DNA of 64,000 bases from Candidatus Peregrinibacteria bacterium (GTDB taxonomy: Bacteria > Patescibacteriota > Gracilibacteria > UBA1369 > LOWO2-01-FULL-3), in NCBI GenBank assembly GCA_030592015.1, contig JAUUZY010000001.1:62001-126000 (forward strand), written 5' to 3'. Shown one piece after another: positions 7,655 through 36,192 of the stretch. Under the pieces are notes generated by a model. That model saw only the letters and a program-made list of their open reading frames with translations, did not search any database and was not told where the DNA came from. Within the stretch, counting starts at the first letter, position 1. Each line of letters opens with the position of its first letter. A program made the position numbers and the translations under genes.

Positions 7655-9883
7655 CTATATTAGTGGAGCTTCAAAAACAGGTTCAATATCACCCTGCATA
7701 GCCCCAAGATTTTCAAATTCCCCAGCTTCATCCCATTTATTGAGCATCTCTTCTACACCTACCTTTGGCATACAATATTTCGCTCTTGAAGTCTCAATAA
7801 TTTGATTTACGAAGCTATCATCTACCTTTGGTACAGTAATAGTTCTACCTGAAAAAGCCTCCCTTATCTCACCATTCACAGACATTTTACAATAAAACTC
7901 ACGCACCCCCAGGTTGATAATATCTCTTTCCTTAAACACCGGAGTATATTCCTCCGCCAAAAACTTCGCATCATCCGCCCCAACTCTAAAACTAACCATC
8001 GATCCAACATTACCAAACACTGTTTTTCTAACCTTGTCGGACAACTGTCCCATATACTGATGAGCAATAGTCAAATTCAATCTATACTTTCTCGCCTCAG
8101 ACAAAATTTCCGCAAACATATCCGTAGCAAAATTCTGAAACTCATCTACATAGAAATAAAAGTCACTTCTATCCTCCTCCTTCATATCTGCCCTACTCAT
8201 AGCAGCCTGATAAAGCTTTGTAATAATCATCGCTCCCAAAAGCGAACTGTTTTCTTCCCCCAAAAGCCCCTTAGACACTTTCATCAAAAGAATTTTCTTA
8301 TTGTCCATAACATCACGAATATCAAATTTATTCGTAGGTTGACCAATAATATTCCTAATCATATTTGTAGAAACAAACTGCCCCACCTTATTCAAAAGCG
8401 GAGTTATCGCCTCAGCATCAAATTTCTCACTCCATCCGGCAAACTCAGAAACCCAGAAATTTTTCACAACATTATCCTGAATACGAGAAACTATCGTCTG
8501 TCTATAGTTCTTATCCGTCAACATCTTCAAAATAGACAAAACAGTCGTATTGTCACTATCCAAAAGAGCCAAAACCGTATACCTAAGCACGTGCTCCAGT
8601 CTATCGGTCCAATTACTACCAAATAATTTCTTAAAAATCTGAATAAAACCAATAGTAACCTGCATTTTGTAAGCCTCATCCACATTTTCCAAAGGATTGA
8701 AAGAAATCGGGAAATTAGTATCTGAAGGATCAAAATAAATAACATCCTTGATTCGATGCTCCGGAATCATAGCCAGAACATTATCAACCAAATCTCCATG
8801 AGGATCCAAAATCCCAACACCATGACCATTATCCAAATCCTCCTTGATAAGCAATTCCAACAATTTAGATTTTCCTGAACCGGATTTTCCAACAGCATAA
8901 AGATGTCTACGCCTATCGGCTCTCCTAATCCCAAAGGTCTCAAAATTATTATGATAATTTGTAACCCCAAACAAACTCACCCCCTTCTCCCCTATCTTCG
9001 GTAGATCCTGAGGCGGCTCCGCTTTTCGCGCTAAAACATGCACAATATGAGAAACATTATCCGAATTCGGCAAATGATAAAGAGTAGCAATCTCCTTTGG
9101 ATTCAATAAAAAAGGAACAACCAATTTTCTGGCACGATACTCAGCAAGAAAGACCTTTTCTGAAAGTCTCAAAGGCTTAAATTCCTGAATATCTGTCTTA
9201 TTAAATTGATAAAAACTATTTATAATCGCTTCCAACTTTCTTCTTGCATCCTCTGGGGTCTTTGCAATATAAGCCAAACGCATATTTGCAAAAAACGGCT
9301 CAGTTTTCACCTTTTCAACAGCCAAGACATGTCGAACTTTTATCACACTATTCTCATCCTTCATTCTCATACGATCTCTCAAACTAAATATTTTTTTGAA
9401 TTTATTCCATCGAAGATTCACCCTTCTTTTCAAATGATGAACCGCACTTTCCTCACGTGGATTAATTACAATCTGAACCCAAACCTGCTCACCCGAAGCA
9501 ATTTTTGAAATAACAGAGAAAAGCCTACTCTGACTATCCTCATCAAACTCATCATAAGTCTTGATCGGATAAACATCTCCAAAACGAAATTTCATCCTAA
9601 CACCAGCAATAGCCTCCTTACTCGAGTCATATTTCGCAGAATAATCCAAAACTTCCCTTATTTCACAATCAGGATATGAAGAATACAAAAGACCTTCAAT
9701 AGTCTCAAAAAGCTTAGTTGGAACAGCGATAAAGAAGTAGGTATATTGCTCAAATCCTAGGCATTCAAGGGAAATAGAAGCGTTCTTCACAGTATTATGC
9801 AAATTCATCAAAAGCTCCTGAAAAATGCTTTCTTTTTTCTTTACATCATCTCCCTGCGGAACTATCACTTGAAAATACTTCAT
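7655..9883 (-). CDS. VirD4/TraD-like DNA-transport or secretion ATPase
   Basis: The protein has 742 residues. The N-terminal ~300 residues form an unassigned alpha/beta domain. A RecA-like motor follows, with Walker A GKSGSGKS (332-339), GILDPHGDLVD just after it, and a Walker B-type FYFYVDEFQNF. The layout matches the type IV coupling-protein/TraG family common in Patescibacteria, thought to move DNA or protein at the envelope. No relaxase, pilin or VirB gene lies nearby. It is the last large gene below the three Cys-rich paralogues, separated by a 123-bp gap that contains a short hairpin (TAGTCCT/AGGACTA at 9939-9955). ATPase assignment is firm; the cargo is unknown. Confidence 0.9.
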   Translation of the reverse strand: MKYFQVIVPQGDDVKKKESIFQELLMNLHNTVKNASISLECLGFEQYTYFFIAVPTKLFETIEGLLYSSYPDCEIREVLDYSAKYDSSKEAIAGVRMKFRFGDVYPIKTYDEFDEDSQSRLFSVISKIASGEQVWVQIVINPREESAVHHLKRRVNLRWNKFKKIFSLRDRMRMKDENSVIKVRHVLAVEKVKTEPFFANMRLAYIAKTPEDARRKLEAIINSFYQFNKTDIQEFKPLRLSEKVFLAEYRARKLVVPFLLNPKEIATLYHLPNSDNVSHIVHVLARKAEPPQDLPKIGEKGVSLFGVTNYHNNFETFGIRRADRRRHLYAVGKSGSGKSKLLELLIKEDLDNGHGVGILDPHGDLVDNVLAMIPEHRIKDVIYFDPSDTNFPISFNPLENVDEAYKMQVTIGFIQIFKKLFGSNWTDRLEHVLRYTVLALLDSDNTTVLSILKMLTDKNYRQTIVSRIQDNVVKNFWVSEFAGWSEKFDAEAITPLLNKVGQFVSTNMIRNIIGQPTNKFDIRDVMDNKKILLMKVSKGLLGEENSSLLGAMIITKLYQAAMSRADMKEEDRSDFYFYVDEFQNFATDMFAEILSEARKYRLNLTIAHQYMGQLSDKVRKTVFGNVGSMVSFRVGADDAKFLAEEYTPVFKERDIINLGVREFYCKMSVNGEIREAFSGRTITVPKVDDSFVNQIIETSRAKYCMPKVGVEEMLNKWDEAGEFENLGAMQGDIEPVFEAPLI

Positions 9884-10006
9884 TCCAATTAGTAATAAAT
9901 AATGGCTACATACTTTACCACAAAAGCGAAAGCCTGTCTAGTCCTTGTAGGACTAAAAGCAAGCTCATTCAAACTAGACATAAAAAAGCAATAAATCAAG
10001 AAAGCA

Positions 10007-11659
10007 CTAATAAACAGTTTCCAGATAACATTTATCACAATAAACAATTTCTCGTCTTTCAGGAGCGTAACTTGTAACAACCTTGGCAGCACATTTAGCA
10101 CATGATCTATCAAAACTTATTATAGGGTTTCTCATAGCCAATCTAAGAGCATTTCTAGTTTCCGGAGCATAATGAGGAATAGGAACTCCCATCTTCTTAT
10201 ATAACTCCAATTCCCGAGGAATAATTTTGTATGGACGTCCTGTTTTCTCGCACACCAAAGGCTTCCCTACAATATCGTCACTCACATCATTAATAGAATC
10301 AGGAATCACATAGTCACTCTGCATTTCACGAACTTCCTCATCAAGCCACTTCAAGCCCTGAGACAAGGCCTCTGACTTAGTCATAGGAAAATAGTCCTGA
10401 GCCACAGTTTCATTATACGCAAACAATGAATCCTTCATGGGACAAAATTCCCCCCATTCGCCGGTAGACTTCATATGTTCAACAATTCTTGCACGAAGAT
10501 CAAAATACTCATCTTTTGAATATTGTTTATTCAAAATACAATACTCCCCTCTATTCAGGCACACACAGCCAAAAAGATCATGACCATTGGAAACAAGATC
10601 ACAATAAAAAACATCATTCGACCACCAAGAACAAGCGCTGAGAGCATTGTGATAACCATCAACAGAGCCAGTCATTTCATAAAAAAGCTCAGGTTTATGC
10701 CCCACATGATCACTACTCAAAATATCCTTTGCCACCCATCCACCAAGAAAGACATCCTTCATATCTTCTGCCGGCCCCTCAATCCCAAAAGAATTACTAA
10801 CATTATTCGCATTACTAAGATAATCCCCAGTACAACCTTCACAATTCACAGTACTGGCAAACTTATGAGGGTATTTTAATTTAAATTCAGCAAACTCCTT
10901 CTTCATTTTTTCTACAGCAGTCCAGCTATCCAACCGATATCCCTTAACTTTCCTCTCATAATCCTCCTTTGAATATAGCTTATTAAAAATATGATAGCGC
11001 TTACTTCTGAGGCCAACACACCCAAAACAATCATCACAATTTCTACATTCAAAAAGAAAAGAACTGTCCTTACAGTTATGACTATTTTGACAATACTTAA
11101 GATTATAACATTTCGTACAATCAGTACTGTCATAAACAAGTTCACTTTCATTCACCCAATAAACATCAACATTATCCTTACAGTACATGCAAAAAATACT
11201 ATACATGCAGTCCTCACTATAATCCCCACCAAAAACCAAATAACAATTCTTATTTGAAAGACTCATATTGCAATACTCACTATTCTCGCCCTGAGAATTC
11301 ATCAAGGACAAACGCGGAACAACCTGCCTAAGCTCATGAAACTGCTGAAAAAAAGGCTTCGAAAAGTCATAATCACACCCATAGTCCTTTGCATCCCATT
11401 TATCACTCCACCAAGCATCCTGAGAATAAACAGTACAAGGGCCACCAGGAGAATACAAAGAAACTATCGGCTCCCCTGTCAGATCACATTTAGCATTATA
11501 TATTTTTCTTTCATTACGATGAGAAAGCCGCCTCCTATGCCTTTCTTCTATACAAAGAGTAGGCAAAGGTAGCCCAAACTTTTGAAGAAAATCTTGCTCC
11601 CACTCTGTAACTACAAATTCCTTTCCTGTAATTCTGCATGTCTGAGTAAGCTCGGGCAT
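10007..11659 (-). CDS. Cys-rich repeat protein, third of three tandem paralogues
   Basis: This 550-residue protein is homologous along its whole length to the two genes upstream. Shared blocks include RNERKIYNAKC, the WWSDKWDAKDYG segment and DFSKPFFQQF. It also has a Cys-spaced central region ending in CDDCFGCVGLRSKRY, a second copy of that block (DLFGCVCLNRGEYC) and the C-terminal CDKCYLETVY. Unlike its paralogues, the N-terminal zinc ribbon is degraded: CxxC has become CRIT and CIEE, so it has probably lost one metal site. No enzyme motif or signal peptide is visible. It is the last of the trio, with an 8-bp gap to the previous gene, so the three are surely co-transcribed. Function unknown. 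Confidence 0.85.
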   Translation of the reverse strand: MPELTQTCRITGKEFVVTEWEQDFLQKFGLPLPTLCIEERHRRRLSHRNERKIYNAKCDLTGEPIVSLYSPGGPCTVYSQDAWWSDKWDAKDYGCDYDFSKPFFQQFHELRQVVPRLSLMNSQGENSEYCNMSLSNKNCYLVFGGDYSEDCMYSIFCMYCKDNVDVYWVNESELVYDSTDCTKCYNLKYCQNSHNCKDSSFLFECRNCDDCFGCVGLRSKRYHIFNKLYSKEDYERKVKGYRLDSWTAVEKMKKEFAEFKLKYPHKFASTVNCEGCTGDYLSNANNVSNSFGIEGPAEDMKDVFLGGWVAKDILSSDHVGHKPELFYEMTGSVDGYHNALSACSWWSNDVFYCDLVSNGHDLFGCVCLNRGEYCILNKQYSKDEYFDLRARIVEHMKSTGEWGEFCPMKDSLFAYNETVAQDYFPMTKSEALSQGLKWLDEEVREMQSDYVIPDSINDVSDDIVGKPLVCEKTGRPYKIIPRELELYKKMGVPIPHYAPETRNALRLAMRNPIISFDRSCAKCAAKVVTSYAPERREIVYCDKCYLETVY

Positions 11660-11667
11660 AAAATATA

Positions 11668-13254
11668 CTAATACAGTTCTTTAAGATAACATTTCTCACA
11701 GTACACAATCTCAGGCTGATCTGGAGAATAAGTGCTACGTATCCCTAGACCACAGTTATCACATTTCCTGTCCCAAAGTTTGCGAGAATTTCTCTGCAAA
11801 AACCTAGCTCTATGCCTACAATCAGGACATTTTTTCGGTACAGGAAAGTCTTTTGCTTTATAAAACTTCAATTCCTGAGCAATCATCTTATAATTTCTCC
11901 CACAATCTTCACATGATGGAAGTTTAGAATTTATAGCCTTTTCCTCAATATCCCGCCACTTATACCCTCGGTCCAAAGTCTCCTCCTTAGTTAAAGGGAA
12001 ATATTCACAGGAAAGAGTCTCATTGTATGCGAAAGGTGAAATACTAACAGGAAAATATTCTCCATATTCCTTACTTTCCCTCATAGACTCAATTATTTTC
12101 GCAACTAGCTTTTCATATTCCTCCTTGGAATATTGTTTATTAAAAACACAATATTGCTTACGGCGTAAACCAAAACATCCAAACAAATCCGAAGAAAAAT
12201 AACAATGCTGAGAATACTGAGTATCGTTAATTTCACGGCAATAATAAAGAAACTTAGAATTATTAGAAGCAGTAACACCATTCATTTCATAGCAACACTC
12301 AGAGCCCATTCCAACATTAGTGCAATCATAAAGATCACGTGAATTAAACCCAGCCAAATCACAATAAGCACTACCTTCCAAAGCAAGACCGTCAAAACAG
12401 TCCTTCAAATTCTTACTATTCTCCACATAATCACCAGTCACATCTTCACTCGCAATAACATGCATAAATTTCTTTGGAATTGTCAGAGACAAATCATTCA
12501 ATTTTTTCAACCATTCCCTTATAGAATCATGATTAAAACGAATGTCATTTAAACGACGTTTATACTCTTCCTCAGACAATTGTTCATTCATAAATACATA
12601 CTCAGAATTCCTCAAACCAACAGAAGAAAAACAGTTAGTACAAGCCATACAATCCTTCAAGAAATAACTGTCATTACAATTCAAACAATCCTGAGAAAAA
12701 GCAAGATTGTAGCACTTCATACAATCCACACATTCGTAACAAAGCTCACAGGAAAGAACCTTAGTACAATCAACACAAGATTTAGACTTTATAGCTCCAT
12801 AACTGTAATAAACATCCTCACAGTAAGCACAAAGAGCAAGATAACAATTTTTATTCTCAACCCCAAAATTCACATATTCACAGTTTTCAGAACTCCCATC
12901 CTGAAATAGTGCAATATGAGGAATAGCCTTATCCAATTCGCTAAATTGTTCAAAAAAAGATTTGGAAAAATTATATTCCCTTGCATAGTCCATAACATCC
13001 CATTTATCACTCCACCAACAATCATAACAGTAAACTATGAACTCAGAATCCTTAGGGAACACAGAAATCACCGCCACTTCACACAAATCACAATGCCTAT
13101 TGTATAAATGCCTCTCATTCCTCAACGCAGAACGCCGCTGCCTCCTACAATCAGGACAAAAAGTCGGCTTCGGCAAAGAATTCCTATCATAAAAATCCTG
13201 ATCCCTCTGATCAATTTCAAATTGAACACTACATTGCGTACAACTTCGATTCAT
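11668..13254 (-). CDS. Cys-rich repeat protein, second of three tandem paralogues
   Basis: The 528 residues open with an intact four-Cys ribbon (CTQC...CPDCRRQ). The family block RNERHLYNRHC..WWSDKWDVMDYA follows. Next comes a ladder of closely spaced Cys (CVDCTKVLSCELCYECVDC) that ends in DCMACTNCFSSVGLRNSEYV and an EEYKRR helix. The ladder recurs in the second half before LFGCFGLRRKQYCVFNKQ. A C-terminal double ribbon (CEDC, CPDC, CDNC, CEKC) ends the protein. I infer a soluble Zn- or Fe/S-binding scaffold with an internally duplicated core. There is no signal sequence, so it is probably cytoplasmic. It lies 8-9 bp from both neighbours. Confidence 0.85.
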   Translation of the reverse strand: MNRSCTQCSVQFEIDQRDQDFYDRNSLPKPTFCPDCRRQRRSALRNERHLYNRHCDLCEVAVISVFPKDSEFIVYCYDCWWSDKWDVMDYAREYNFSKSFFEQFSELDKAIPHIALFQDGSSENCEYVNFGVENKNCYLALCAYCEDVYYSYGAIKSKSCVDCTKVLSCELCYECVDCMKCYNLAFSQDCLNCNDSYFLKDCMACTNCFSSVGLRNSEYVFMNEQLSEEEYKRRLNDIRFNHDSIREWLKKLNDLSLTIPKKFMHVIASEDVTGDYVENSKNLKDCFDGLALEGSAYCDLAGFNSRDLYDCTNVGMGSECCYEMNGVTASNNSKFLYYCREINDTQYSQHCYFSSDLFGCFGLRRKQYCVFNKQYSKEEYEKLVAKIIESMRESKEYGEYFPVSISPFAYNETLSCEYFPLTKEETLDRGYKWRDIEEKAINSKLPSCEDCGRNYKMIAQELKFYKAKDFPVPKKCPDCRHRARFLQRNSRKLWDRKCDNCGLGIRSTYSPDQPEIVYCEKCYLKELY

Positions 13255-13263
13255 ATTGCTATT

Positions 13264-14919
13264 TTAATACATTTCCTGCAAATAACATTTTTCACAATAC
13301 ACAGTCTCAGGACAATCAGCCACATAAGTACTACGTATACCTACATCACATTTATCACATTTCCTGCTCCACAACTTTCTTGAATTTCTCTGAGAAACCC
13401 TAGCCGCATTACGACAATCCGGGCATTTCTTCGGCACAGACAAACCCTTTCTACGATAAATATTCAACTCCTGACTAATCACCTTATAGTTTTTCCCACA
13501 ATCTACACATGCAAGAACTTCATTCACAATACTATCCGGCACATCCTTTATTCTATTAGGAAAATCACAGCTCGCAGGCCTATACTCCCTTTTATCAGTA
13601 TCCCGCCAAGCATAACCATCCTCCAAAGCTTTCTCTTTACTCAAAGGAAAAAACTCCTGAGCCATAGTTTCGTTATATGGAAAAGGTGATATTGCAATTG
13701 GAAAAAATTCACCCCACTCCCCCATTTTCTTCATATGCTCAACAATACGAGGCATAAGCTCCTCGTATTCCTCCTTTGTATATTGTTTGTTCAAAATACA
13801 ATATTTCTTATGCAGCAAACCAACACACCCAAAACAATGAGCACAATGACGACAATTATCAGAATAAAAATCATTACTACCATCCCAACACTGACTACAA
13901 AAAGCAGTAGCAGTCTGTCTTATTGGAGAATAGACCTCATAGGTCATCTCAGACCAACCGGTATGATATCCATCCAAACAATTCTTTACCTCAGAGTCCT
14001 GAACATACATACAATCCTCTGAACGATAAACCTGATAACAATCATGACAATTCTTAGACTCAAAGATGTAATCCCCACTGCAATTTTCAGTCTTATCCTG
14101 TATCGAATAAAGATGAGGCACCTGTAACTTCAAACCCTCAAGCCTCTCTTGAACTTGCCGCACTTGCTCCTCGTCCTGCAAATCAAATTCCTTAATCCGC
14201 TTCTCGTATTCCTCCTTAGTAAATTGCTCGTTAAACAGGCAATAAGACTTATCCCTAAGCCCAACACATGCAAAACAATCTCTGCATCTCCTACAATCAT
14301 ACAAGTAGTAAGAATCCGAACAGTTATGAGATAAAACACAGTAAAAACAGTTATATGAATGATTAGAATCAAGACATCCCACACAATTCTCCGTTTGAAA
14401 GCAATAACTACAATCAATACAACTCTTGCACTCCAAAAGCCAATAGCAATACAAGAGAGCCTCCCCCCTATAAACACACTGACTCAAATAACAATCCTTA
14501 GCATCAAAAGCAAAATTGCAATAATCACTATTCTCCGTATTTTGACCATTTAAGGCAGGGCGTGGAACAGTTGACAACAATTGCTCAAATTGTTCAAAAA
14601 AGGGCCTACTGAAGTCAAAGTCAATTCCATAGTTCAATGCATCCCAATCATCCTTCCACCACTCAGATCTCTCATACACAGGGAATTTCACGCCTTCCGG
14701 ATATCCAGAAATAATCTGCTTTCCGGTTTTACTGCAATTCCGATTATACAAAAACCTCTCATTTCTAAAACTCATCCTCCTTTGCATTCTACAATCTGGA
14801 CAGTGAGTTGGAGCTGGCACAACTCCAGTTTCAAAATGTGAAGAAATTCTATTTCTGAGTTCAGATTCTTCAGAAACAATTTGAAAATTTATCCCACAAT
14901 TTTTACAAGTTTTTTCCAC
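13264..14919 (-). CDS. Cys-rich repeat protein, first of three tandem paralogues
   Basis: The start is GTG at 14919. About 45 of 551 residues are Cys. Order: an N-terminal ribbon (CKNC and CPDC), the block RNERFLYNRNC..EWWKDDWDALNYG..DFSRPFFEQFEQ, and a Cys ladder (CKSCIDCSYC, NCVGC, CRRCRDCFACVGLRDKSYC) closed by FNEQFTKEEYEKRI. A linker leads to a second ladder (CRHCAHCFGCVGLLHKKYC) with ILNKQYTKEEYEEL, then a C-terminal ribbon pair ending in CEKCYLQEMY. The two ladders are clear internal repeats. Such proteins are, from memory, frequent in Patescibacteria and poorly named; I assign no function. It heads the trio. The 237-bp gap upstream (14920-15156) holds nothing I recognise. Confidence 0.85.
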   Translation of the reverse strand: MEKTCKNCGINFQIVSEESELRNRISSHFETGVVPAPTHCPDCRMQRRMSFRNERFLYNRNCSKTGKQIISGYPEGVKFPVYERSEWWKDDWDALNYGIDFDFSRPFFEQFEQLLSTVPRPALNGQNTENSDYCNFAFDAKDCYLSQCVYRGEALLYCYWLLECKSCIDCSYCFQTENCVGCLDSNHSYNCFYCVLSHNCSDSYYLYDCRRCRDCFACVGLRDKSYCLFNEQFTKEEYEKRIKEFDLQDEEQVRQVQERLEGLKLQVPHLYSIQDKTENCSGDYIFESKNCHDCYQVYRSEDCMYVQDSEVKNCLDGYHTGWSEMTYEVYSPIRQTATAFCSQCWDGSNDFYSDNCRHCAHCFGCVGLLHKKYCILNKQYTKEEYEELMPRIVEHMKKMGEWGEFFPIAISPFPYNETMAQEFFPLSKEKALEDGYAWRDTDKREYRPASCDFPNRIKDVPDSIVNEVLACVDCGKNYKVISQELNIYRRKGLSVPKKCPDCRNAARVSQRNSRKLWSRKCDKCDVGIRSTYVADCPETVYCEKCYLQEMY

Positions 14920-15156
14920 CTCTTATGAATACAGAAAAACAACTTGAATGTAAAACACAGTCCAAAAAAGCAATAAAAAACAAGAAGAACGATCAATTTT
15001 TTTGTGCGGCCAGAAACCGGTCAATACAGCCACAACTCTAGAAACACAAAGTAGAAAACAACAAGGAATAAAGACCCCAAGAAAAAAATACAAAATTGCC
15101 GAAAGAACCAAACAATGATAAATTAATTAGGCAAACAAAGAACAGTAATAATTATC

Positions 15157-15987
15157 ATGAAAATTGTTATTCTAATTCCAAAACTTCACGCTGGATCAGA
15201 GCTGGCGCTGAACAAATTGCTACAAAAAAAAGACTTAAATATAGTTGGAATTGTTCGCTCAGATATTTCCCCATTAACAAAAAAATACTGGCGATATTTT
15301 AGATATGGTCTACGTCGAGCAGGAGCATTTTATGCAATCATAATAGCACTGGTAGCATATCTACATTTTATAGGCTTAGGACTGGCAAGCCTCTTTATAT
15401 GGAATAGAAAACGACGCTGGTTGCACATCACAAAGCTTATAAAGAAACACAAGCTGGCAATTCACGACACAAGCAACATAAACTCCAAAGAGAGCATAGC
15501 TATAATCAAATCATGGGAGCCGGATGTGCTTGTTTCAATCAATTTTGACCAAATACTAAAAAAACGAGTAATCAAAATTCCAAAAATCACAACTTTGAAC
15601 ATGCACCCGGGACTATTGCCCAAGTACAAAGGCGTTTGGCCTAGCTTCTGGAAGCTACACAACGGAGAAAAATACGCCGGAGTAACAATTCACCACCTAA
15701 ACGAAAAAATCGACGAAGGAGCCATAATTGCCCAGAGAAAATTTAGAATCCATAAAAACGAAACAAGTTTTCACCTTGCACTTAGATCTGCTCAACACGG
15801 AAGCCAATTATTGATCAAAACACTACAAAAAATGAAAAAAGGTATCAAACTACCAACTATAAAGATAAAAGCAAAACCTTCATACTATTCCCTACCATCA
15901 AAAGTAGAATTTGACGCATTCCACGCAAAGGGAAAAAGGATCTTCTCCGGACTAGGGCTATGGAAAGAATTCAAAAGACGATTCTAA
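15157..15987 (+). CDS. Formyltransferase-domain protein (Fmt-like)
   Basis: The family mark is the hydroxymethyl-/formyl-transferase core: WEPDVLVSINFDQIL, then the active-site strand NMHPGLLPKYKG, then GVTIHHLNEKIDEGAIIAQ. These are the N-x-H and D residues used to transfer a formyl group from 10-formyl-THF. The N-terminal half differs from true methionyl-tRNA formyltransferase: it is short and has a hydrophobic stretch (about 60-90) where the substrate loop is expected. The C-terminal tRNA-binding domain is absent (276 aa against ~310). A sugar-amine or other formyltransferase is therefore as likely as Fmt. Its 3' end overlaps the VKOR gene by 4 bp, convergently. Confidence 0.8.
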   Translation: MKIVILIPKLHAGSELALNKLLQKKDLNIVGIVRSDISPLTKKYWRYFRYGLRRAGAFYAIIIALVAYLHFIGLGLASLFIWNRKRRWLHITKLIKKHKLAIHDTSNINSKESIAIIKSWEPDVLVSINFDQILKKRVIKIPKITTLNMHPGLLPKYKGVWPSFWKLHNGEKYAGVTIHHLNEKIDEGAIIAQRKFRIHKNETSFHLALRSAQHGSQLLIKTLQKMKKGIKLPTIKIKAKPSYYSLPSKVEFDAFHAKGKRIFSGLGLWKEFKRRF

Positions 15988-16415
15988 ACTGCTTTTCGAA
16001 GCTTTAGATGCTCAAATATAAAAACACCAAGCATCACCAAAGTGATACCAAATGATCCCCAACACCAAATACAAATGTCACCTATTTTGGCAAATTCCAA
16101 ATAGCGTAGATAAACTCCAAACAACACTCCCCAAACTATCAAAATACCAAGAAACAAATCTAAAAGTTTGTGCTTTATAAGACTTCTTTCAAAAGCAAGA
16201 AACCACACACCCACATAAAAGAAAAACCCATAAACAGCCATAGGAACACCAAGTATTTTCCCATATTCACTATTCAAAACAGTCTCGCACCCATCATCGG
16301 TACAAGGAACAATAGTGTCAGATACCTGAATCCACCAGAGATAAGCGCAAAGCAACATCCCAACAATGCTCAAAAGCAATATAATCCTATTTGTCCACAA
16401 CTTTAAATCTTTCAT
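15984..16415 (-). CDS. Vitamin K epoxide reductase (VKOR) family protein
   Basis: Bacterial VKOR re-oxidises periplasmic disulfide oxidoreductases and passes electrons to quinones. The protein has 143 residues, four or five membrane helices, a first Cys pair (C38, C43 in PCTDDGCETV) before LNSEYGKILGVP, and the quinone-side redox motif CIWC (115-118). All are diagnostic. It stands alone without a fused thioredoxin domain. A functioning disulfide pathway fits the many Cys-containing secreted proteins in this window. A possible -10 (TAGAAT) lies a few bases before the ATG. Confidence 0.93.
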   Translation of the reverse strand: MKDLKLWTNRIILLLSIVGMLLCAYLWWIQVSDTIVPCTDDGCETVLNSEYGKILGVPMAVYGFFFYVGVWFLAFERSLIKHKLLDLFLGILIVWGVLFGVYLRYLEFAKIGDICIWCWGSFGITLVMLGVFIFEHLKLRKAV

Positions 16416-16482
16416 AACAGCCCCATTCTATACAACTCTCTCTCAAAATGCTATAAAATTAACAACGAAAATAATTAGCAAA

Positions 16483-17604
16483 ATGTCAGCACAAGTAAAT
16501 ATAATTGGGCTTCTATACCGAAAATTGGTCAAACCAGTTGTTTTTTTAGCAAATCCGGAACACGTACACGATGCATTTACACAAATAGGAAGCTTCCTTG
16601 GAAAAAACTTCCTAAATAGAAAATTCACAAGAATTCTACTCCACTATAAAAACGAAAAACTCGAACAGGAGATAGCGGGAATAAAGTTCTTGAACCCTGT
16701 AGGGCTATCCGCAGGCTTCGACAAAGATGCCCACTTACAAAACATTCTACCCGAAGTAGGATTCGGATTCATGCAGGTAGGATCAGTAACACTCCATCCA
16801 TATGGGGGAAACACAAAACCCAGACTAACAAGACTCAAAAAATCTAAAGGAATAGTTGTAAACTACGGATTAAAAAATATAGGAGTAGATAAGATCATTC
16901 CTAGAATAAAAAATCACAATAACCCAGACTTTCCACTAAGCATCTCCATTGCAAAAACAAACTGCAAAGACACTGCCAGCACAGAAGAAGCTATCCTAGA
17001 CTACTATGGATGTATAAAGAAGTTGGAGAAAAGCGATGTCGGAGATTTCTACACCATCAACATATCCTGCCCTAACACTTTCGGGGGAGAACCCTTTACC
17101 ACAGCGGCAAAACTAGAAAAACTACTCGCAAAAATTATGACTTTAAACATAGAAAAACCGATATTTGTAAAAATGCCAATCAATATGGAATGGCATGAAT
17201 TCAAGGAACTATTGGAAATAATAATTGAACACAAAATCACAGGTGTCATCATCGGGAACCTAAATAAAGACAGAAAACTAGACACAATAAAAGACCACAT
17301 TCCAAAAGATCTAAAAGGAGGAATTAGCGGAACCCCAACAAAGGAACTCTGCAACAAGCTAATATCAAAAACCTACAAACATTACGGCAAAAAATTAATC
17401 ATAGTTGGAGTAGGTGGCATATTCTCCACCGAAGACGCCTATGAAAAAATTAAACTGGGATCAAGCCTAGTACAACTAATAACCGGCATGATCTTCCAAG
17501 GCCCACAATTAATAGGCGAAATCAACCGCGGACTTGTAAAACTTCTCGAAAAAGATGGATTCAAAAATATCCATGAAGCGATCGGCTCATTTAGTGAAGA
17601 GTAG
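16483..17604 (+). CDS. pyrD: Dihydroorotate dehydrogenase
   Basis: The enzyme oxidises dihydroorotate to orotate in pyrimidine synthesis, using FMN. The barrel shows NPVGLSAGFDKDA, GSVTLHPYGGN and KPRLTRL, then NYGLKN, GGISG and GVGGI. I chose ATG 16483 over the in-frame start 117 bp upstream. The family N-terminus (YRKLVKPVVFLANPEHVHD) starts right there, and a TATAAA sits near 16453. The N-terminal helix pair is typical of the quinone-linked class 2 enzyme, but the catalytic segment reads NISCPN, with Cys as in class 1, where class 2 normally has Ser. The 3' end overlaps the next gene by 14 bp. Confidence 0.92.
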   Translation: MSAQVNIIGLLYRKLVKPVVFLANPEHVHDAFTQIGSFLGKNFLNRKFTRILLHYKNEKLEQEIAGIKFLNPVGLSAGFDKDAHLQNILPEVGFGFMQVGSVTLHPYGGNTKPRLTRLKKSKGIVVNYGLKNIGVDKIIPRIKNHNNPDFPLSISIAKTNCKDTASTEEAILDYYGCIKKLEKSDVGDFYTINISCPNTFGGEPFTTAAKLEKLLAKIMTLNIEKPIFVKMPINMEWHEFKELLEIIIEHKITGVIIGNLNKDRKLDTIKDHIPKDLKGGISGTPTKELCNKLISKTYKHYGKKLIIVGVGGIFSTEDAYEKIKLGSSLVQLITGMIFQGPQLIGEINRGLVKLLEKDGFKNIHEAIGSFSEE

Positions 17605-30858: not shown

Positions 30859-32010
30859 ATGAAACTCTACGGATTCGAACTAGGAAGACAAAAAGAACTC
30901 TCACTCGCAGAGCTATACACAGTATTCGGCAAAGAAAGCTTTGTCGAAAAAAGCGCCGACATAGCAATCTTTAAGCTAGAGGAAGTAGATATTCCACAAA
31001 AGCTACAAGATAGGCTGGGAGGAACAATTAGAATCATAGAAATATTTAAACAAACAAATAAGGAATCAGTTAAGAGTGAAATACAAAGTCATCTAGAGGA
31101 AGACTTCAGCGACAGCAGTGGAAAAATTCCATTCTCCATCAGCCTATTCGCTCCAAAAAAGTACAAAGACATTAATATCAAAGACTTATTAAATTTTTCT
31201 AAAAAAATTCTTAAATCCCTAGGGCTAAACAGCCGTTTCGTAAACAAAGACTTAGACCGCCCAAAATCCTCAACCATATACAAAGCAAAGGTTGTCGAAA
31301 AAGGCGTCGACATATGCCTCATACAAATAGATGAGATGCTATTCATAGGAAAAACCGCAGCAATTCAAAATATAGACGCATATTCAAAAAGAGACTACGA
31401 CAAACCTGGCAGAGACCCAAAAGTAGGAATGCTCCCACCAAAACTCGCACAAATAATGATAAACATAGCCGGAGAAAGCTCAGTAATATACGATCCCTTC
31501 TGCGGAACAGGAACGGTACTGACAGAAGGACTATTGATGGATAAAGAAGTAATCGGATCAGACATGGATGAAAGAATGGTAAAATACTCAAACAAGAACT
31601 GTGAATGGCTGCAAAAAGAATTCTACAAAAAAGGAAAATTCGAAGTATTCGAAAAAGACGCACGATTCCTCACAAAATCAGACATAAAAACGCCAATAGA
31701 CGCAATAGTGACTGAAGGATACCTCGGTCCCCCACTCATAGCCCACCCATCAGAAGAAGAAACAGAGACAATATTCAGAGAATTGGCAAACCTGCACCTG
31801 AACTGGCTAACAGCAATAAGTGAACTCATAAAGAAAGGTACCATCATCGTAATGTGCCTAGCAGCCCACAAAGCAGCAAAAGGAGTAAGAGAACTCACCC
31901 GCTTCAAAGAAATAGCTGAGATGGCCGGATTCCAGATAAATAAGAGCTATAGATATCAAAGATCAGACCAAATAGTGCTAAGAGACATAAAAATACTGGA
32001 GAAAATCTAA
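30859..32010 (+). CDS. Trm11/Trm-G10-like RNA methyltransferase (UPF0020 family)
   Basis: The 383 residues comprise an N-terminal THUMP-like half and a Rossmann methyltransferase with motif I DPFCGTGT (212-219) and the preceding GMLPPKLAQIMINIAG helix typical of UPF0020. Such enzymes make m2G or m2,2G in tRNA. Motif IV, normally (D/N)PPY, reads TEGYLGPPL (285-293). The altered catalytic site may still methylate RNA or mark a distinct CPR subgroup. AdoMet-binding is clear; the nucleotide target is not. tRNA-Asn starts 61 bp after it under a separate promoter. Confidence 0.85.
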   Translation: MKLYGFELGRQKELSLAELYTVFGKESFVEKSADIAIFKLEEVDIPQKLQDRLGGTIRIIEIFKQTNKESVKSEIQSHLEEDFSDSSGKIPFSISLFAPKKYKDINIKDLLNFSKKILKSLGLNSRFVNKDLDRPKSSTIYKAKVVEKGVDICLIQIDEMLFIGKTAAIQNIDAYSKRDYDKPGRDPKVGMLPPKLAQIMINIAGESSVIYDPFCGTGTVLTEGLLMDKEVIGSDMDERMVKYSNKNCEWLQKEFYKKGKFEVFEKDARFLTKSDIKTPIDAIVTEGYLGPPLIAHPSEEETETIFRELANLHLNWLTAISELIKKGTIIVMCLAAHKAAKGVRELTRFKEIAEMAGFQINKSYRYQRSDQIVLRDIKILEKI

Positions 32011-32071: not shown

Positions 32072-32146
32072 TCCCGGGTAGCGCAGTGGTAGCGCAGTTG
32101 GCTGTTAACCAATTGGTCGCCGGTTCGAATCCGGCCCCGGGAGCCA
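32072..32146 (+). tRNA. tRNA-Asn (anticodon GTT) and insertion target
   Basis: The acceptor TCCCGGG pairs with CCCGGGA. The D arm contains AGTGGTAGCGC, the anticodon loop CTGTTAA gives GUU (Asn), the T arm has GGTTCGAATCC, and CCA is encoded (32144-32146). The last 16 bases plus the next T (CCGGCCCCGGGAGCCAT, 32131-32147) recur exactly at 33241-33257. The 3' end is therefore the likely attachment site of the cassette array downstream. Confidence 0.95.
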
Positions 32147-32171
32147 TAAAAAACAGAAATTAGAACTACAG

Positions 32172-33116
32172 CTATACAACATCACTAATTAGCATTTTCC
32201 CCCAACCATGTTTCAAAATCTTCCTTAAATTACTAATAGGACAACGAGTGCGCTTATTAAGATAAGGTAGTCCTTTTATGCAAAGATCAAGCATTTCTTT
32301 ATCTTTTTCTAATAATGTCATACCCCTAAACACTTTTAGCAATGGTTCAACATCTTCCCAACCCCTCATTACTTGAGACAGCCTAGAAGGGCAAACTGGA
32401 GCACTAGCTGATAGATCAACAATTTCATCTACAACATCCATAAGAATTGCTTTAGCTTCATCACTAAAAGGCACACTTTCCTGATACTCTCTACACTTAG
32501 CAAGCAAGAGACGACGGGCCTGTGATGGAGTAAGTGGTTTTTGACTAATTTCATAAAAAACAGGTTCGAGATGAGAATAAACTTCAGACAAAACCCTAAT
32601 CTTTTGCTGATTATGAATACGCCCTCCAACTGCAGCAAGAATTTTATGTCCATGATTTAAAAATCGATCAACAACAGTCATACTTAATGAATCAGCAGCA
32701 AGTTCATCAAAAACTAAGACCTCAGAAGAAGAAAGAGACTTTAGTATTTCAGCTTCAATACATTTAATTTCATATTGAATAGTATCTGGAGATTCACGAT
32801 GATCAGGAAAAGGAGTAAAAAACAGTTGGTGATAGACAGCTTCAGATATCTGTTTCACCATGGTCGTTTTACCCGCACCAGTCGGCCCTACCAAAACAAC
32901 AAAAACATTTTCCTTAATTAAGGCACAAATATCTTCTATTTCCCTCACTCTCAAATTCTCAACATACTCAGGACCATCAGGATCTTTCTCCTGAAGCTCT
33001 TGAAATAAAGGCTCTCCATCAGACGCTAAAACTTCAATTAAGGCATTATACGGAAAAACACTTTCTGGAGTAACCTCATCAACCTGAATCTCACGAAATG
33101 TATTTCTAAAATGCAA
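32172..33116 (-). CDS. Cassette-borne P-loop AAA ATPase
   Basis: After an N-terminal helix, the protein shows Walker A GPTGAGKTT (near 77-85 from this start) and Walker B VLVFDELA, then a sensor-like DRFLNHGHKILAAVGG strand. The C-terminal half is helical. It looks like a stand-alone AAA/STAND-type ATPase with no recognisable partner domain. I start it at TTG 33116, because the longer frame (to 33170) begins inside the promoter (TTGACT at 33170-33175, TATACT at 33146-33151). It is the sole gene between tRNA-Asn and the first copy of its 3' end, so it is probably a mobile-island gene, perhaps for defence or element mobility. Confidence 0.75.
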   Translation of the reverse strand: MHFRNTFREIQVDEVTPESVFPYNALIEVLASDGEPLFQELQEKDPDGPEYVENLRVREIEDICALIKENVFVVLVGPTGAGKTTMVKQISEAVYHQLFFTPFPDHRESPDTIQYEIKCIEAEILKSLSSSEVLVFDELAADSLSMTVVDRFLNHGHKILAAVGGRIHNQQKIRVLSEVYSHLEPVFYEISQKPLTPSQARRLLLAKCREYQESVPFSDEAKAILMDVVDEIVDLSASAPVCPSRLSQVMRGWEDVEPLLKVFRGMTLLEKDKEMLDLCIKGLPYLNKRTRCPISNLRKILKHGWGKMLISDVV

Positions 33117-33145
33117 AATAAATAAATTATAAAAAAATAGACAAA

Positions 33146-33175
33146 AGTATAGTAAACATCCCATTAACAAGTCAA
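33146..33175 (-). promoter_or_regulatory. Promoter of the cassette ATPase gene
   Basis: On the minus strand TTGACT (33170-33175) and TATACT (33146-33151) with 18 bp between. It lies 66 bp inside the boundary repeat, so the cassette carries its own promoter. Confidence 0.6.
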
Positions 33176-33202
33176 AACCTTGTCATCAGGCGCAATTTGA
33201 AC

Positions 33203-33222
33203 CGCCTGCCGGCAGACAGGCG
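33203..33222. repeat. GC-rich inverted repeat next to boundary site 2
   Basis: CGCCTG and CAGGCG are the arms of a 20-base palindrome with an eight-base loop, 18 bp before the second boundary repeat. GC-rich and unlike the flanks; it may be a recombination or REP-like signal. Confidence 0.5.
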
Positions 33223-33273
33223 AGAATGTAAGAGTATCCCCCGGCCCCGGGAGCCATCGGAAGCATCAAAAAC

Positions 33274-34470
33274 TCACAATTCCCCCTTCATCTTCTGATA
33301 TCTAAAATTTTTCACACTACTCTTAGTCCTTACAATTTCACCTTCGTGAAATACTCTATTCAATTCATCTGCAATCGCTTGGATATCAGTACAGACACGA
33401 CTTCCAACCGAATACTTAAATCTATCATCCTGCCATAAACGAATACAATAATTGTGCTCATCTAGACACGTTTCAGAATCAAATCTAAAATTCTCCCATG
33501 GTATCTTTCCACATGCAATTATGGCTAACCTGGAAGCTTCCTTCCTCTCCTCAATCGTCCTCAAAGCCAAAGCATTTGTAGCTTCAAGTTTTAAAATACC
33601 ATATTTCCTATTGAAATTTTCAATACTACTTCCTTTTCTAACATCCTCTCCCCCATAAAATACATCATTAATCACCCCCGCAATTAATTGTGACTCTATC
33701 ACTGCTTTCCCATCTATAGTTCTCCTTTGATATTTAGGATCATTTATTAATTTAGCACAATAATCATATTCCCCTAATCCAGATTTCGTATCAATATTTT
33801 CATTATTCCAAGGAACCACACCACGAGCTGCCATAGATAATTTAGCAACTTCCTTTCTTTTCGCATCATCAAATCCATGTATTCCCGCCTTTAGCTCCTT
33901 AGCTTTCCCCCCCCACGCACGCAACTCCTCAGAACTTGCAGAACCAATACCTTTTCCTTCCGCATATTGCCTACGCGCCTTATCACTTCTTTCTTCAGTA
34001 GTCATAGCATGTATCCCAACTTTCATATCTCTCGCTCTACTCCCCCATTCGCTCAATTGTTCAAAAGTTGCAGCATGTACACCTTTTTGAAGTTCAACAA
34101 CTTTCCTCCCAGCTTTTACTGCTGACTCATGCCTTTGTTCAGGTGTAAATGCATGCACTCCTATACCAGCCTCAACTGACCTATTTCCTACATCAACATA
34201 GTGACTATAAGCCAGCTCTTCTCTTTTCTCTACATCAGGAATCAATATTTTTAGAGCATTATAAATTGAAGTCCTTGCCATACCTCTTGTCCTACAAATA
34301 TCCATTAAATCATAGAGCTCTGCAATCTCTTCATGAGTAAATCCAGCCTCATATGCTTCAGCAATTTCAGGATATTCGCGAGCAATTTCTTTACCTAGCT
34401 CTTTAGCATACCGTATAGCAGCAATCTGATTTAGGGATAGACTTCTGTCATCTTTTTTTTCCACAGACAT
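33274..34470 (-). CDS. Cassette-borne protein with HTH-like start and internal repeats
   Basis: The 398 residues split into three parts. Residues 1-80 are helical with a helix-turn-helix feel (FTHEEIAELYDLMDICRTRG). Residues about 100-200 carry four imperfect ~27-residue repeats of GIHAxTxEERxxxA followed by a Lys/Gly turn. Residues 215-398 carry a duplicated ~75-residue domain (VPWNNENIDTKSGLGEYDYC and IPWENFRFDSETCLDEHNYC). The G-(I/V)-H-A-x-T repeats recall the short modules found beside homing endonucleases. I infer a DNA-binding protein of the mobile element. It is followed by a TA pair in the same cassette on the same strand. Confidence 0.7.
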   Translation of the reverse strand: MSVEKKDDRSLSLNQIAAIRYAKELGKEIAREYPEIAEAYEAGFTHEEIAELYDLMDICRTRGMARTSIYNALKILIPDVEKREELAYSHYVDVGNRSVEAGIGVHAFTPEQRHESAVKAGRKVVELQKGVHAATFEQLSEWGSRARDMKVGIHAMTTEERSDKARRQYAEGKGIGSASSEELRAWGGKAKELKAGIHGFDDAKRKEVAKLSMAARGVVPWNNENIDTKSGLGEYDYCAKLINDPKYQRRTIDGKAVIESQLIAGVINDVFYGGEDVRKGSSIENFNRKYGILKLEATNALALRTIEERKEASRLAIIACGKIPWENFRFDSETCLDEHNYCIRLWQDDRFKYSVGSRVCTDIQAIADELNRVFHEGEIVRTKSSVKNFRYQKMKGEL

Positions 34471-34540
34471 AGTATCCTGAGATTACGGAAAATAAGCTAA
34501 AAACTATAACGCCTTTTCGTAAACATGTCAACACCCACTG

Positions 34541-34813
34541 CTAAATTTCTTGATAAACCTCCCTCCTATGCTTCACAGCCAAAACCAATAATACTTTTAT
34601 ATTTCCCTTTTTATCCACATCAAAAACAACTCGATAATTACCAACCCTAAATCGATAATTGCCTAAAATAGCCCCCTTTAGCTTTTTAGCAAACTCTAAA
34701 GGATCTTTTTGCTTTGAATAATGAAAAACTTTATCAATTATCCTTTGAGCGACCTTTAAATCAATAGATTTTAAATCTTTTCGAGCCTTTTTGGTATATA
34801 CCACCTCATGCAT
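34541..34813 (-). CDS. RelE/ParE-superfamily toxin (cassette B)
   Basis: This 90-residue protein starts with the family strand HEVVYTKKARKDLK. It then has LKGAILGNYRFRVGNYRVVFDVD with two Arg, the usual ribosome-dependent mRNase surface, and ends VKHRREVYQ. It follows its antitoxin gene by 3 bp in the same operon, as typical for type II systems. The catalytic residue set is partial, so a distinct cutting preference is possible. It sits between boundary sites 2 and 3. Confidence 0.85.
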   Translation of the reverse strand: MHEVVYTKKARKDLKSIDLKVAQRIIDKVFHYSKQKDPLEFAKKLKGAILGNYRFRVGNYRVVFDVDKKGNIKVLLVLAVKHRREVYQEI

Positions 34814-34816
34814 AAT

Positions 34817-35068
34817 CTACAATAATCCAAATTCCTTCATGACTTCTTCTTGTGTATACACCTCCCCTCTTTCCACCTGTTCTCTAGCTTCAGTGATATC
34901 CTTAGCCAAATTCTCCAAAACCAATTCCTTTTCATCAATCGGATTAACCTCCATTATTGGAGTAGAATGATACATCACAATATAGCGAATTTTCTTTTTC
35001 TTCGCCTCCTTCCAAAGAGAAGTAATGTTCTCTCTAAATTTCTTAATTCCAATAATTTTCGTAGTCAT
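34817..35068 (-). CDS. Phd/YefM-like antitoxin (cassette B)
   Basis: The 83 residues match the Phd/YefM fold. An N-terminal DNA-binding part (KFRENITSLWKEAKKKK) with RYIVMYHSTPIMEVNPI follows the start, and an acidic helical tail (EAREQVERGEVYTQEEV) wraps the toxin. It precedes the RelE-like toxin, with a 3-bp gap. A perfect 18-bp palindrome overlies its -10, so the pair probably represses its own operon. Confidence 0.82.
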   Translation of the reverse strand: MTTKIIGIKKFRENITSLWKEAKKKKIRYIVMYHSTPIMEVNPIDEKELVLENLAKDITEAREQVERGEVYTQEEVMKEFGLL

Positions 35069-35090
35069 AATAACAATTTAAATATTACAC

Positions 35091-35123
35091 CTAAAGTGTA
35101 CACTTTAGAGCGCTACCTGTAAA
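35091..35123 (-). promoter_or_regulatory. TA promoter with an 18-bp operator palindrome
   Basis: On the minus strand TTTACA (35118-35123), 17 bp, TACACT (35095-35100). The perfect palindrome CTAAAGTGTACACTTTAG (35091-35108) covers the -10, a classic position for the antitoxin operator. Confidence 0.75.
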
Positions 35124-35184
35124 GTAAAAAGTTCGGACAGCGTCCAGTCTGGGGAGCCATAATTTCAAAAATCATTTTTTTGTC

Positions 35185-35213
35185 TTGCAACAACTCAAAA
35201 TACTATTTATAAC
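35185..35213 (+). promoter_or_regulatory. Promoter of the second TA module
   Basis: TTGCAA (35185-35190), 17 bp, TATAAC (35208-35213), 27 bases before the antitoxin ATG. The -10 is flanked by an imperfect inverted repeat (AATACTATT at 35199-35207 and AATAGAAGTATT at 35218-35229), a likely operator. Confidence 0.72.
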
Positions 35214-35240
35214 ACTAATAGAAGTATTAACAAAAGTACT

Positions 35241-35498
35241 ATGAACAATATTATTACAGCCAACGAATTAAAAACAAAGGGGATATCAATCGCTGACAAT
35301 CTAGCAGCACAAGGGCTAGAAACAATAGTTACAATAAGAGGAGAGGCCAAATATGTAATTCTCCCTACAAAACAATATTACGCACTCAAAGAACATGAAT
35401 TAATGTCCGCACTTGCAGAATCCAAAAAAGACCTAAAAGATGGTAAGTACAAAAAAGGATCTATAGAAGCCCACATAAAAAGAATTAGCAATGCCTAA
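35241..35498 (+). CDS. Type II antitoxin, Phd/YefM-like (cassette C)
   Basis: The 85 residues start with ITANELKTKGISIADNLAAQG, a DNA-binding module. TIVTIRGEAKYVILPTKQYYALKEHEL follows, and a charged tail (ESKKDLKDGKYKKGS) ends the protein. It overlaps the toxin gene by 8 bp. Transcription is plus-strand, opposite to cassette B, and the pair lies alone between boundary sites 3 and 4. Confidence 0.82.
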   Translation: MNNIITANELKTKGISIADNLAAQGLETIVTIRGEAKYVILPTKQYYALKEHELMSALAESKKDLKDGKYKKGSIEAHIKRISNA

Positions 35499-35763
35499 AT
35501 TAGTGTTCACTGAAAGCTACGAAAAAAAAGCAAAAAAATTCATCAAAAAACACCCTGAGCTAAGAGATAAATACATAAAAACTCTTAAATTTCTTCAAAC
35601 AAACCCCCAGCATCCATCACTAAAACTACACAAATTAACAGGAAAATTGTCAAAACTTCACAGCATTTCCATAAACCTGTCTTATCGAATAACGATTTAC
35701 TTCATCATGAAAAAAGACACAATAATCCCTATCGATATTGGAACTCACGATGAGGTATATTAG
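35491..35763 (+). CDS. RelE/YafQ-like mRNA interferase toxin (cassette C)
   Basis: The 90 residues contain TESYEKKAKKFIKKHPEL, then PSLKLHKLTGKLSKLHSISINLSYRITIYF, and end DIGTHDEVY. The PxLxxHxLxGxL..SI pattern, Arg in strand 3 and the terminal GTHDEVY are typical of YafQ/RelE-type ribosome-dependent endoribonucleases. It is coupled to the antitoxin by an overlapping start. It carries its own promoter in the cassette. Confidence 0.88.
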   Translation: MPKLVFTESYEKKAKKFIKKHPELRDKYIKTLKFLQTNPQHPSLKLHKLTGKLSKLHSISINLSYRITIYFIMKKDTIIPIDIGTHDEVY

Positions 35764-35853
35764 TAAAGTAACCTTAGCTCAGACCAAGTTCGGACAGCGT
35801 CCAGTCTGGGAAGCCATCGAAACATTAAGATCCATGATACCTAACTTATTTAC

Positions 35854-36099
35854 ATGCTTACGTATACCTACCAAATAAAAGGACAAAATTTCCAAACATC
35901 ATTTTTCACCTATCATATTGAGAATGAGGTAAAAAAAAGCAGGCACCATGGAATAACAATTCGTATAAGCAAACACTCCAGCGACTCATTAAACGTGGTC
36001 TTAAGCCACTCAGATAGCGGCAAAATTCAAAAATTTGCTGATTGGCTTAAAAATGCTAGCAAAGGTTCCTCAAAAGTTACCAGCATTCGTAAACTATAG
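35854..36099 (+). CDS. Small cassette protein, acylphosphatase-like fold possible
   Basis: The 81 residues alternate beta strands and two helices (TYTYQIKGQNFQTSFF, a helix, ITIRISKHSSDSLNVVL, a helix). The pattern recalls acylphosphatase but lacks its catalytic Arg/Asn, so no activity is proposed. It is the only gene between boundary sites 4 and 5, with 36 bp before and 16 bp after. It is likely a cassette cargo of unknown role. Real coding is supported by its compact position; otherwise uncertain. Confidence 0.55.
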   Translation: MLTYTYQIKGQNFQTSFFTYHIENEVKKSRHHGITIRISKHSSDSLNVVLSHSDSGKIQKFADWLKNASKGSSKVTSIRKL

Positions 36100-36192
36100 T
36101 CTAGAAACTTGTCCACTGGGGAGCCATATGAAAGATGAAAATTCTCATGTAAAGTATTGTTGTCCGAAAAATAATAATTAAAAATCAACATC

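Follow-up and report, generated by a model that had tools for sequence, protein, structure and literature searches.

What has built the row of small gene cassettes that follows the tRNA-Asn gene in the 64,000-nt window analysed here? The window is part of contig C64 of a Candidatus Peregrinibacteria genome (G000; Patescibacteria; 1.2 Mb in 75 contigs, about 90% complete), and a first-pass annotation of it had read the row as successive site-specific insertions at the tRNA 3' end, giving an integron-like array with tRNA-derived sites instead of attC, and had pointed to a tyrosine recombinase. The locus was compared with those of related Peregrinibacteria metagenome-assembled genomes (MAGs), the order sample consisting of 89 genomes. 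This sequence comparison supports the successive insertions. It makes it probable that small mobile cassettes have accumulated as a tandem array at the 3' end of tRNA-Asn through site-specific recombination of the large serine integrase (LSR) type. The recombinase of the array is most likely an LSR and not a tyrosine recombinase.

The anchor of the array, an analogue of attB/attL, is a tRNA-Asn(GTT) gene at 32072-32146 (+ strand; ARAGORN), and the same anchor is found in relatives. The parts of the tRNA gene that are common to the array sites are the T-loop GTTCGAATC and the 3' end GGGAGCCA. The repeats first reported were recovered: the 17-mer CCGGCCCCGGGAGCCAT at the end of the gene (32131-32147) has an exact second copy at 33241-33257, a single base distinguishes the 32-mer at 35129-35160 from that at 35786-35817, and the further core at 36116-36127 forms the last part of a worn site. 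Four sites, all on the + strand, can be delimited. Site 1 ('type 3', 33228-33256, GTAAGAGTATCCCCCGGCCCCGGGAGCCA) has as its 3' end the exact copy of the window's own tRNA end; site 2 ('type 1', 35131-35159, GTTCGGACAGCGTCCAGTCTGGGGAGCCA) consists of an attP-type half-site motif and the core; site 3 (35788-35816, GGGAAGCCA) is of type 1 with one change; and site 4 (36099-36126, GTCTAGAAACTTGTCCACTGGGGAGCCA) is a degenerate 28-nt sequence resembling type 2 (compare GTTCTAAACTTGTCCACTAGCGGGAGCCA in G415).

The array site is a 29-mer with the consensus GTTCGnAnnnCnTCCAnnAnGGGGAGCCA, derived from 51 distinct sites, in which AGCCA is almost invariant; the DNA upstream of the sites is merely A-rich and the DNA after them shows no conservation. 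The length of the site had also suggested a Xer/dif-like site. Only GTTCG and GGGAGCCA are common to the 32-nt sites and the tRNA 3' end of the same genome, and the spacing between them is 5 nt longer in the sites. The resemblance of GTTCGG to a T-arm and the array of tRNA-like sites were thus seen correctly in the first-pass annotation, whereas the 32-nt sites are not copies of the genome's own tRNA 3' end. In the regions downstream of tRNA-Asn, the spans of GTTC...AGCCA pairs on the tRNA strand had a sharp peak at 29 nt (14 and 12 matches versus about 0-3 at other spans), and this peak was not present on the opposite strand. In G404, G415 and G411 both types of site, type 1 and type 2 (GTTCTAAACTTGTCCACTAGCGGGAGCCA and similar), occur interspersed with each other, no hybrids between them were found, and each tRNA retains a 3' end complementary to its own 5' strand. 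These two observations indicate that the 29-mer moves with the cassette as a unit and that the crossover lies in or just after GGGAGCCA; a crossover at the mid-site TCC was ruled out on the same grounds.

Other origins of the sites were considered and rejected. The GGAC-AGC-GTCC hairpin proposed earlier, and with it attC-like folding, is not conserved: GG-CC pairing is kept in 21/51 site variants and no covariation of the C-G pair was detected (p = 0.62). No R''/R' pairs of the attC type were found in the window array. A coding origin of the type 2 sites (WLPLLDxxRT, reverse strand) was discarded given that in-frame stops precede the stretch, which is therefore not a gene, and a target-site duplication by a transposase was discarded given that the ends of the sites do not track the host tRNA.

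The occurrence of the site goes far beyond what chance would give. Two copies of the 22-nt core are all that the 1.2-Mb genome contains (reversed control, 0), and the exact 22-mer was found in four other contigs of Peregrinibacteria or related MAGs, two of which carry tRNA-Asn; none was found among the IMG/VR viral contigs. Allowing up to three mismatches, the type 1 site was present in 7/89 order genomes, all belonging to the family of the window genome. A wider phylum sample of 380 genomes yielded solely the window genome and one other of the same family. A looser family pattern matched 29/89 order genomes compared with 2/89 for the reversed-pattern control, and a few of the 29 matches, e.g. 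one within a gene of G384, are probably due to chance. Wherever tRNA-Asn is on the contig the sites lie downstream of it in the same orientation. The left flank (gmk, ssb and a methyltransferase gene) is conserved in relatives and the cargo changes, comprising toxin-antitoxin pairs, restriction-modification genes, a nucleotidyltransferase-like protein, a transporter-like protein and others. The array cassettes are mostly 0.3-2.6 kb long with one or two genes, and G415 has a run of consecutive compact cassettes, each with one or two genes, a length of about 0.6-1 kb and a site at its end.

The first-pass annotation had named empty sites as a check on the insertions, and both empty-site and single-cassette alleles were encountered. 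In G424, which belongs to the genus of G423 and has an identical tRNA-Asn, the tRNA is followed directly by the flank that lies behind the site in G423 (84% identity over 161 bp), which shows insertion at the tRNA end. Between the congeners G198 and G381, G198 has an extra cassette of 678 bp located exactly between two cores, the next cassette being 87% identical. Several genera share the type 1 site without a difference in its 29 nt, the adjoining cassette having only about 76% identity.

If the sites are products of recombination, which enzyme made them? LSR genes run antisense into tRNA-Asn in eight relatives (G423, G436, G435, G433, G310, G447, G448 and G004, of which the last shows the gene end only); those of G423 and G436 surfaced in a protein comparison of array regions and the others by further searches. 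In all four elements with the far end on the contig this end is an array-type site, at a distance of 7.8 kb (G423), 9.3 kb (G436), 10.2 kb (G448) and 14.2 kb (G435), which shows that these LSR elements are bounded by the same sites as the cassettes. The LSR of G310 has the resolvase, recombinase and zinc-ribbon domains above cut-off (PF00239, PF07508 and PF13408) and matches the A118 integrase (4kis). In G410 two type 1 sites are followed immediately by C-terminal remnants of LSRs, an arrangement that entry of newer cassettes at the tRNA would produce.

The spacing of the site motif also points to an LSR. In LSRs the motif bound by the zinc domain occupies positions 16-24, counted from the crossover, in attP and 11-19 in attB, a shift of 5 bp (PMC3783163, the work in which the A118 integrase was solved). 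The T-loop-like GTTC begins 29 nt before the CCA end in the array sites versus 24 nt in the tRNAs, and this difference equals the published shift between attP and attB. With the crossover set at the AG of GGG-AG-CCA, the GTTCGGACA of the site occupies positions 24-16 and the T-loop GTTCGAATC of the tRNA positions 19-11.

LSRs of the order sit at tRNA-Asn, Gln, Gly, Ser, Pro, His, Phe, Met, Ala, Arg and Trp, so the rule could be examined at other anchors. At tRNA-His three sites (two in G403 and one in G285) were found at exactly +5, with the CACCCCA of that tRNA itself as their end, and the control strand had none at +5; in these arrays (L328 on G403 C1 and L333 on G285 C2) an LSR is at the tRNA and the sites GTTCGAACATCGTC...CACCCCA are 15-19 kb downstream. 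The window genome itself has a tRNA-Met array of the same plan as the tRNA-Asn array (L250 on C43), with a resident LSR at 10558-12102 (+), tRNA-Met at 12081-12156 (-) and two sites GTTCAAAATCT..GGCCCACCA ending at reverse-strand positions 5792 and 14745. By this comparison the +5 rule recurs at tRNA-His and partly at tRNA-Met. LSR genes end antisense inside or at at least eleven kinds of tRNA (loci L213-L242 and L283-L312), which implies that some LSR C-termini are encoded by tRNA genes, and these overlapping LSRs form a set for studies of target specificity.

We propose that each array site would be the far end (attR) of one insertion and would carry the left half of the attP of the element, that is the zinc-domain motif GTTCGRAC, located some 16-24 positions from the crossover, followed by the core GGGAGCCA. 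The tRNA would supply the left half of attB, with the same motif, its T-loop, at positions 11-19, and the crossover dinucleotide would be AG or GA in the core. Every insertion would enter at the tRNA, so that older cassettes would be pushed outward and then be preceded by the site of a newer one, the newest cassette presumably lying next to the tRNA. Cassettes without an LSR would be mobilised in trans by the LSR of another element.

Several observations weigh against this scheme. The recombination is deduced from comparing genomes. No tRNA-Asn LSR was found in the window genome at its assembly completeness of about 90%, the one LSR detected being that at tRNA-Met, and given this the array in the window genome may be dormant. 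The majority of array cassettes are without any recombinase. Site 1 is a separate class outside the GTTC type, to which its left half does not belong, and the element at tRNA-Met has its own site at +7, only the second site being at +5. The starts of the cassettes have no conserved inverted P' half-site, and only some LSR elements (G436, the tRNA-His element of G403 and the tRNA-Met element of the window genome) show a symmetric P' motif. This poor conservation of the right half-site, a weakness of the LSR reading, could reflect either decay or recognition of the left half only. In the latter case the system might be a serine-integrase integron, in which recognition depends on the left half-site alone, the P motif being carried by the cassette and the B motif by the T-loop of the tRNA, with no specificity in the right halves. 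The B x P reaction would then be identical both ways, so that cassettes could be captured and released at the tRNA without a directionality factor. We regard this extension as tentative and on balance rather doubtful.

Part of the same evidence would also be expected if ordinary-size LSR elements had inserted serially at tRNA-Asn and had then decayed by deletion, leaving cargo stumps and attR sites with no mobility of small cassettes. The rarity of LSRs in the cassettes, the truncated LSR C-termini in G410, the missing tRNA-Asn LSR of the window genome and worn sites such as that at 36099-36126 all fit such a fossil. However, a type 1 site that stays identical over 29 nt across genera next to a much more diverged cassette does not fit, and neither do the consecutive compact cassettes of G415, each with its end site, nor the gain or loss of a single 678-bp cassette exactly at the cores in G198 and G381. 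A fossil array is a possible explanation, but one that we consider unlikely. That the repeats are signals for RNA processing or termination, or tRNA-like RNA elements, is suggested by their likeness to a tRNA 3' half with its GCCA end. This is highly improbable given that genes lie on both strands while the orientation of the sites is constant, that covariation in the hairpin is absent and that the sites fall on insertion and indel boundaries.

A tyrosine recombinase, either of phage type or the integron integrase of the order, would build the array in the manner of tRNA islands or integrons. The 3' ends of tRNA genes are classic targets of tyrosine integrases, and an integrase family close to IntI and XerA, with IntI4 as its best relative of solved structure, is present in 47/89 order genomes, including the window genome. 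This integrase is, however, not beside the array in the window genome but on another contig (C68:254-1123), and it is missing from G442, G450 and G402; a test of co-occurrence led us to reject it as the enzyme of the array. The array-bearing genomes G442 (99% complete), G450 (98%), G436 (95%) and G381 (97%) each have a single tyrosine recombinase above threshold, and none was seen at the tRNA end of the tRNA-Asn elements, where LSRs are found in relatives instead. The tyrosine recombinase of the first-pass annotation is accordingly abandoned as quite improbable. In addition, a recurring pair of opposed tyrosine recombinase genes was noted (G415 C77:48935-51273, G382 C2:112080-113924, G390 C64:7388-8975 and G411 C56:6636-10043), which is possibly a mobile element of its own.

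The integron-type integrase has arrays of its own. In the complete genome G317 (C1:525000-544900, L154) the integrase gene at 7933-8826 (-) is next to several cassettes extending from about 8880 to 16716, which start with GTTRRRY and end with the complementary RYYYAAC according to a repeat search, and the tRNA-Asn locus of the same genome has none of the array sites. A search of G317 with a strict attC pattern gave no match, since the partner of the R'' box is the start of the same cassette and not a neighbouring R'. Judged from these features, genuine and typical integrons exist in Peregrinibacteria separately from the tRNA-Asn arrays; our literature search found no paper on integrons in Patescibacteria. 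Many MAG contigs break right at the integron-type integrase.

The cargo of the window array agrees in outline with the first list. Cassette 1 (32147-33256) holds an AAA ATPase open reading frame (ORF) of 332 aa at 32172-33170 (-; Pfam AAA_14/AAA_5). Cassette 2 (33257-35159) holds a 398-aa ORF at 33274-34470 (-), for which identification at the level of Pfam gave no identity, a ParE toxin at 34541-34813 (-) and an antitoxin at 34817-35068 (-). This cassette is possibly a fusion of two. A worn site-like stretch lies inside it near 34516-34544, and its toxin-antitoxin part is homologous to a G415 cassette flanked by sites on both sides, the likeness stopping at GGGAGCCAT. Cassette 3 (35160-35816, 657 bp) encodes a Phd/YefM-like antitoxin (35241-35498, +) and a YafQ/RelE-family toxin (35491-35763, +) recognised by domain searches; its homologue in G400 lies directly after tRNA-Asn and not, as in the window, after a type 1 site. 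Cassette 4 (35817-36126, about 310 bp) has an orphan ORF of 81 aa at 35854-36099 (+) with no Pfam match. Outside the array, the left-flank methyltransferase gene (30859-32010, +; Pfam UPF0020) is next to tRNA-Asn in relatives as well, where it forms an 11-member family outside arrays.

Some tRNA-Asn loci show further variation. The left half of site 1, GAGAATGTAAGAGYATCC, was also found in G352, and a site class made up of a GC hairpin, then GAGAATGKAAGAGNATCC and then the 3' end of the host's own tRNA-Asn is seen in the window (33228-33256), L020 (9881-9909) and L188 (60-88). In G352 (L020) the far end of the array carries a second copy of an 83-bp stretch that begins in the T-loop of tRNA-Asn and extends beyond the gene (8998-9080 and 9892-9974; 78/83 identical). 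In L057 (reverse strand 8973-9259), L059 and L061, tRNA-Asn is followed by short tandem units that end in a T-arm with an inserted hairpin, GGTTCGAAGTTTACACCCGAAGGGTGAATCC, and the tRNA end. Group I introns split tRNA-Asn in G399 and G408 (L063 882-1132 and L064 2565-2805; Rfam RF00028, 90 bits) and appear to be present in other relatives too.

How does the array relate to known systems? In the staphylococcal cassette chromosome (SCC), a Ccr large serine recombinase mediates insertion at the 3' end of a housekeeping gene with direct repeats, and tandem composites include members without ccr. A mecA context without ccr is also described in PMC3637587. The arrays share with SCC the LSR, the insertion at a gene 3' end, the direct repeats and the tandem arrangement with recombinase-less members. 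They differ in the tRNA anchor, the far smaller cassettes and the enzyme: the best matches to the G310 LSR include NCBIfam CcrB and CcrC, but weakly, with 65.8 bits compared with the curated CcrB cut-off of 900. The ssrA islands of Dehalococcoides are arranged in tandem downstream of a small-RNA gene (tmRNA) and use the CcrB-like serine recombinase DsiB, the gene for which is at the left end and antisense into the RNA gene; many islands lack a recombinase, a 15-bp motif TTCAGRSMGMRKCCA lies just upstream of the repeat of the RNA-gene 3' end, and a six-gene integration module comprises DsiB, DsiA, RecF-like, ParB, Mom, etc. (PMC3146451). The TTCGGACAGCGTCCA of the window fits TTCAGRSMGMRKCCA at 14/15 positions, and the tandem arrangement, the antisense LSR at the left end (in the eight relatives) and the recombinase-less members are likewise shared. 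In contrast, the anchor here is tRNA-Asn (also tRNA-His and tRNA-Met) and not ssrA/tmRNA, the cassettes are mostly small with one or two genes, the host is an order of Patescibacteria, and the insertion lies at the 3' core in the present data whereas PMC3146451 places it in the T-loop.

With integrons, and with integron cassette arrays that have no integrase, the arrays have in common a single anchor, small cassettes with a site at one end of each, a mixed cargo rich in toxin-antitoxin genes and gain and loss at the level of cassettes. Unlike integrons, they have short, tRNA-like double-strand sites without attC R''/R' pairs and a serine enzyme instead of IntI, and genuine integrons are separate in the same order. 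As for the A118-type serine integrases, to one of which the G310 LSR is homologous, their motif windows agree with the array site (16-24, attP) and with the tRNA T-loop (11-19, attB) (PMC3783163), while the targets here are tRNA genes and the right half-site is poorly conserved. The closest known systems are the Dehalococcoides ssrA islands and SCC, the former being the same kind of thing at tmRNA. New here are the tRNA anchors, the compact cassettes, the spread over a Patescibacteria order and a quantitative site rule; a literature search among open-licence papers found no earlier description of a tRNA-anchored cassette system.

One site rule, a T-loop motif moved by 5 bp, ties together tRNA-targeted serine integrases, SCC and the Dehalococcoides islands and predicts attP from any tRNA. 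The natural integrases, which by their location seem to be specific for tRNA-Asn, His, Gly, Gln, Met and others, may be useful as tools. If cassettes without an LSR are mobilised in trans, this would be integron-like gene capture by another recombinase superfamily, and if the left half-site alone is recognised, integron-like shuffling of cassettes by LSRs would take place at several tRNAs across the order. The tRNA would thus be a docking point for stacked mobile genes, similar to an integron but with another enzyme and another site. For the ultra-small Patescibacteria, whose gene flow is poorly understood, the array is a concrete site of cassette capture that is rich in toxin-antitoxin and defence-type genes.

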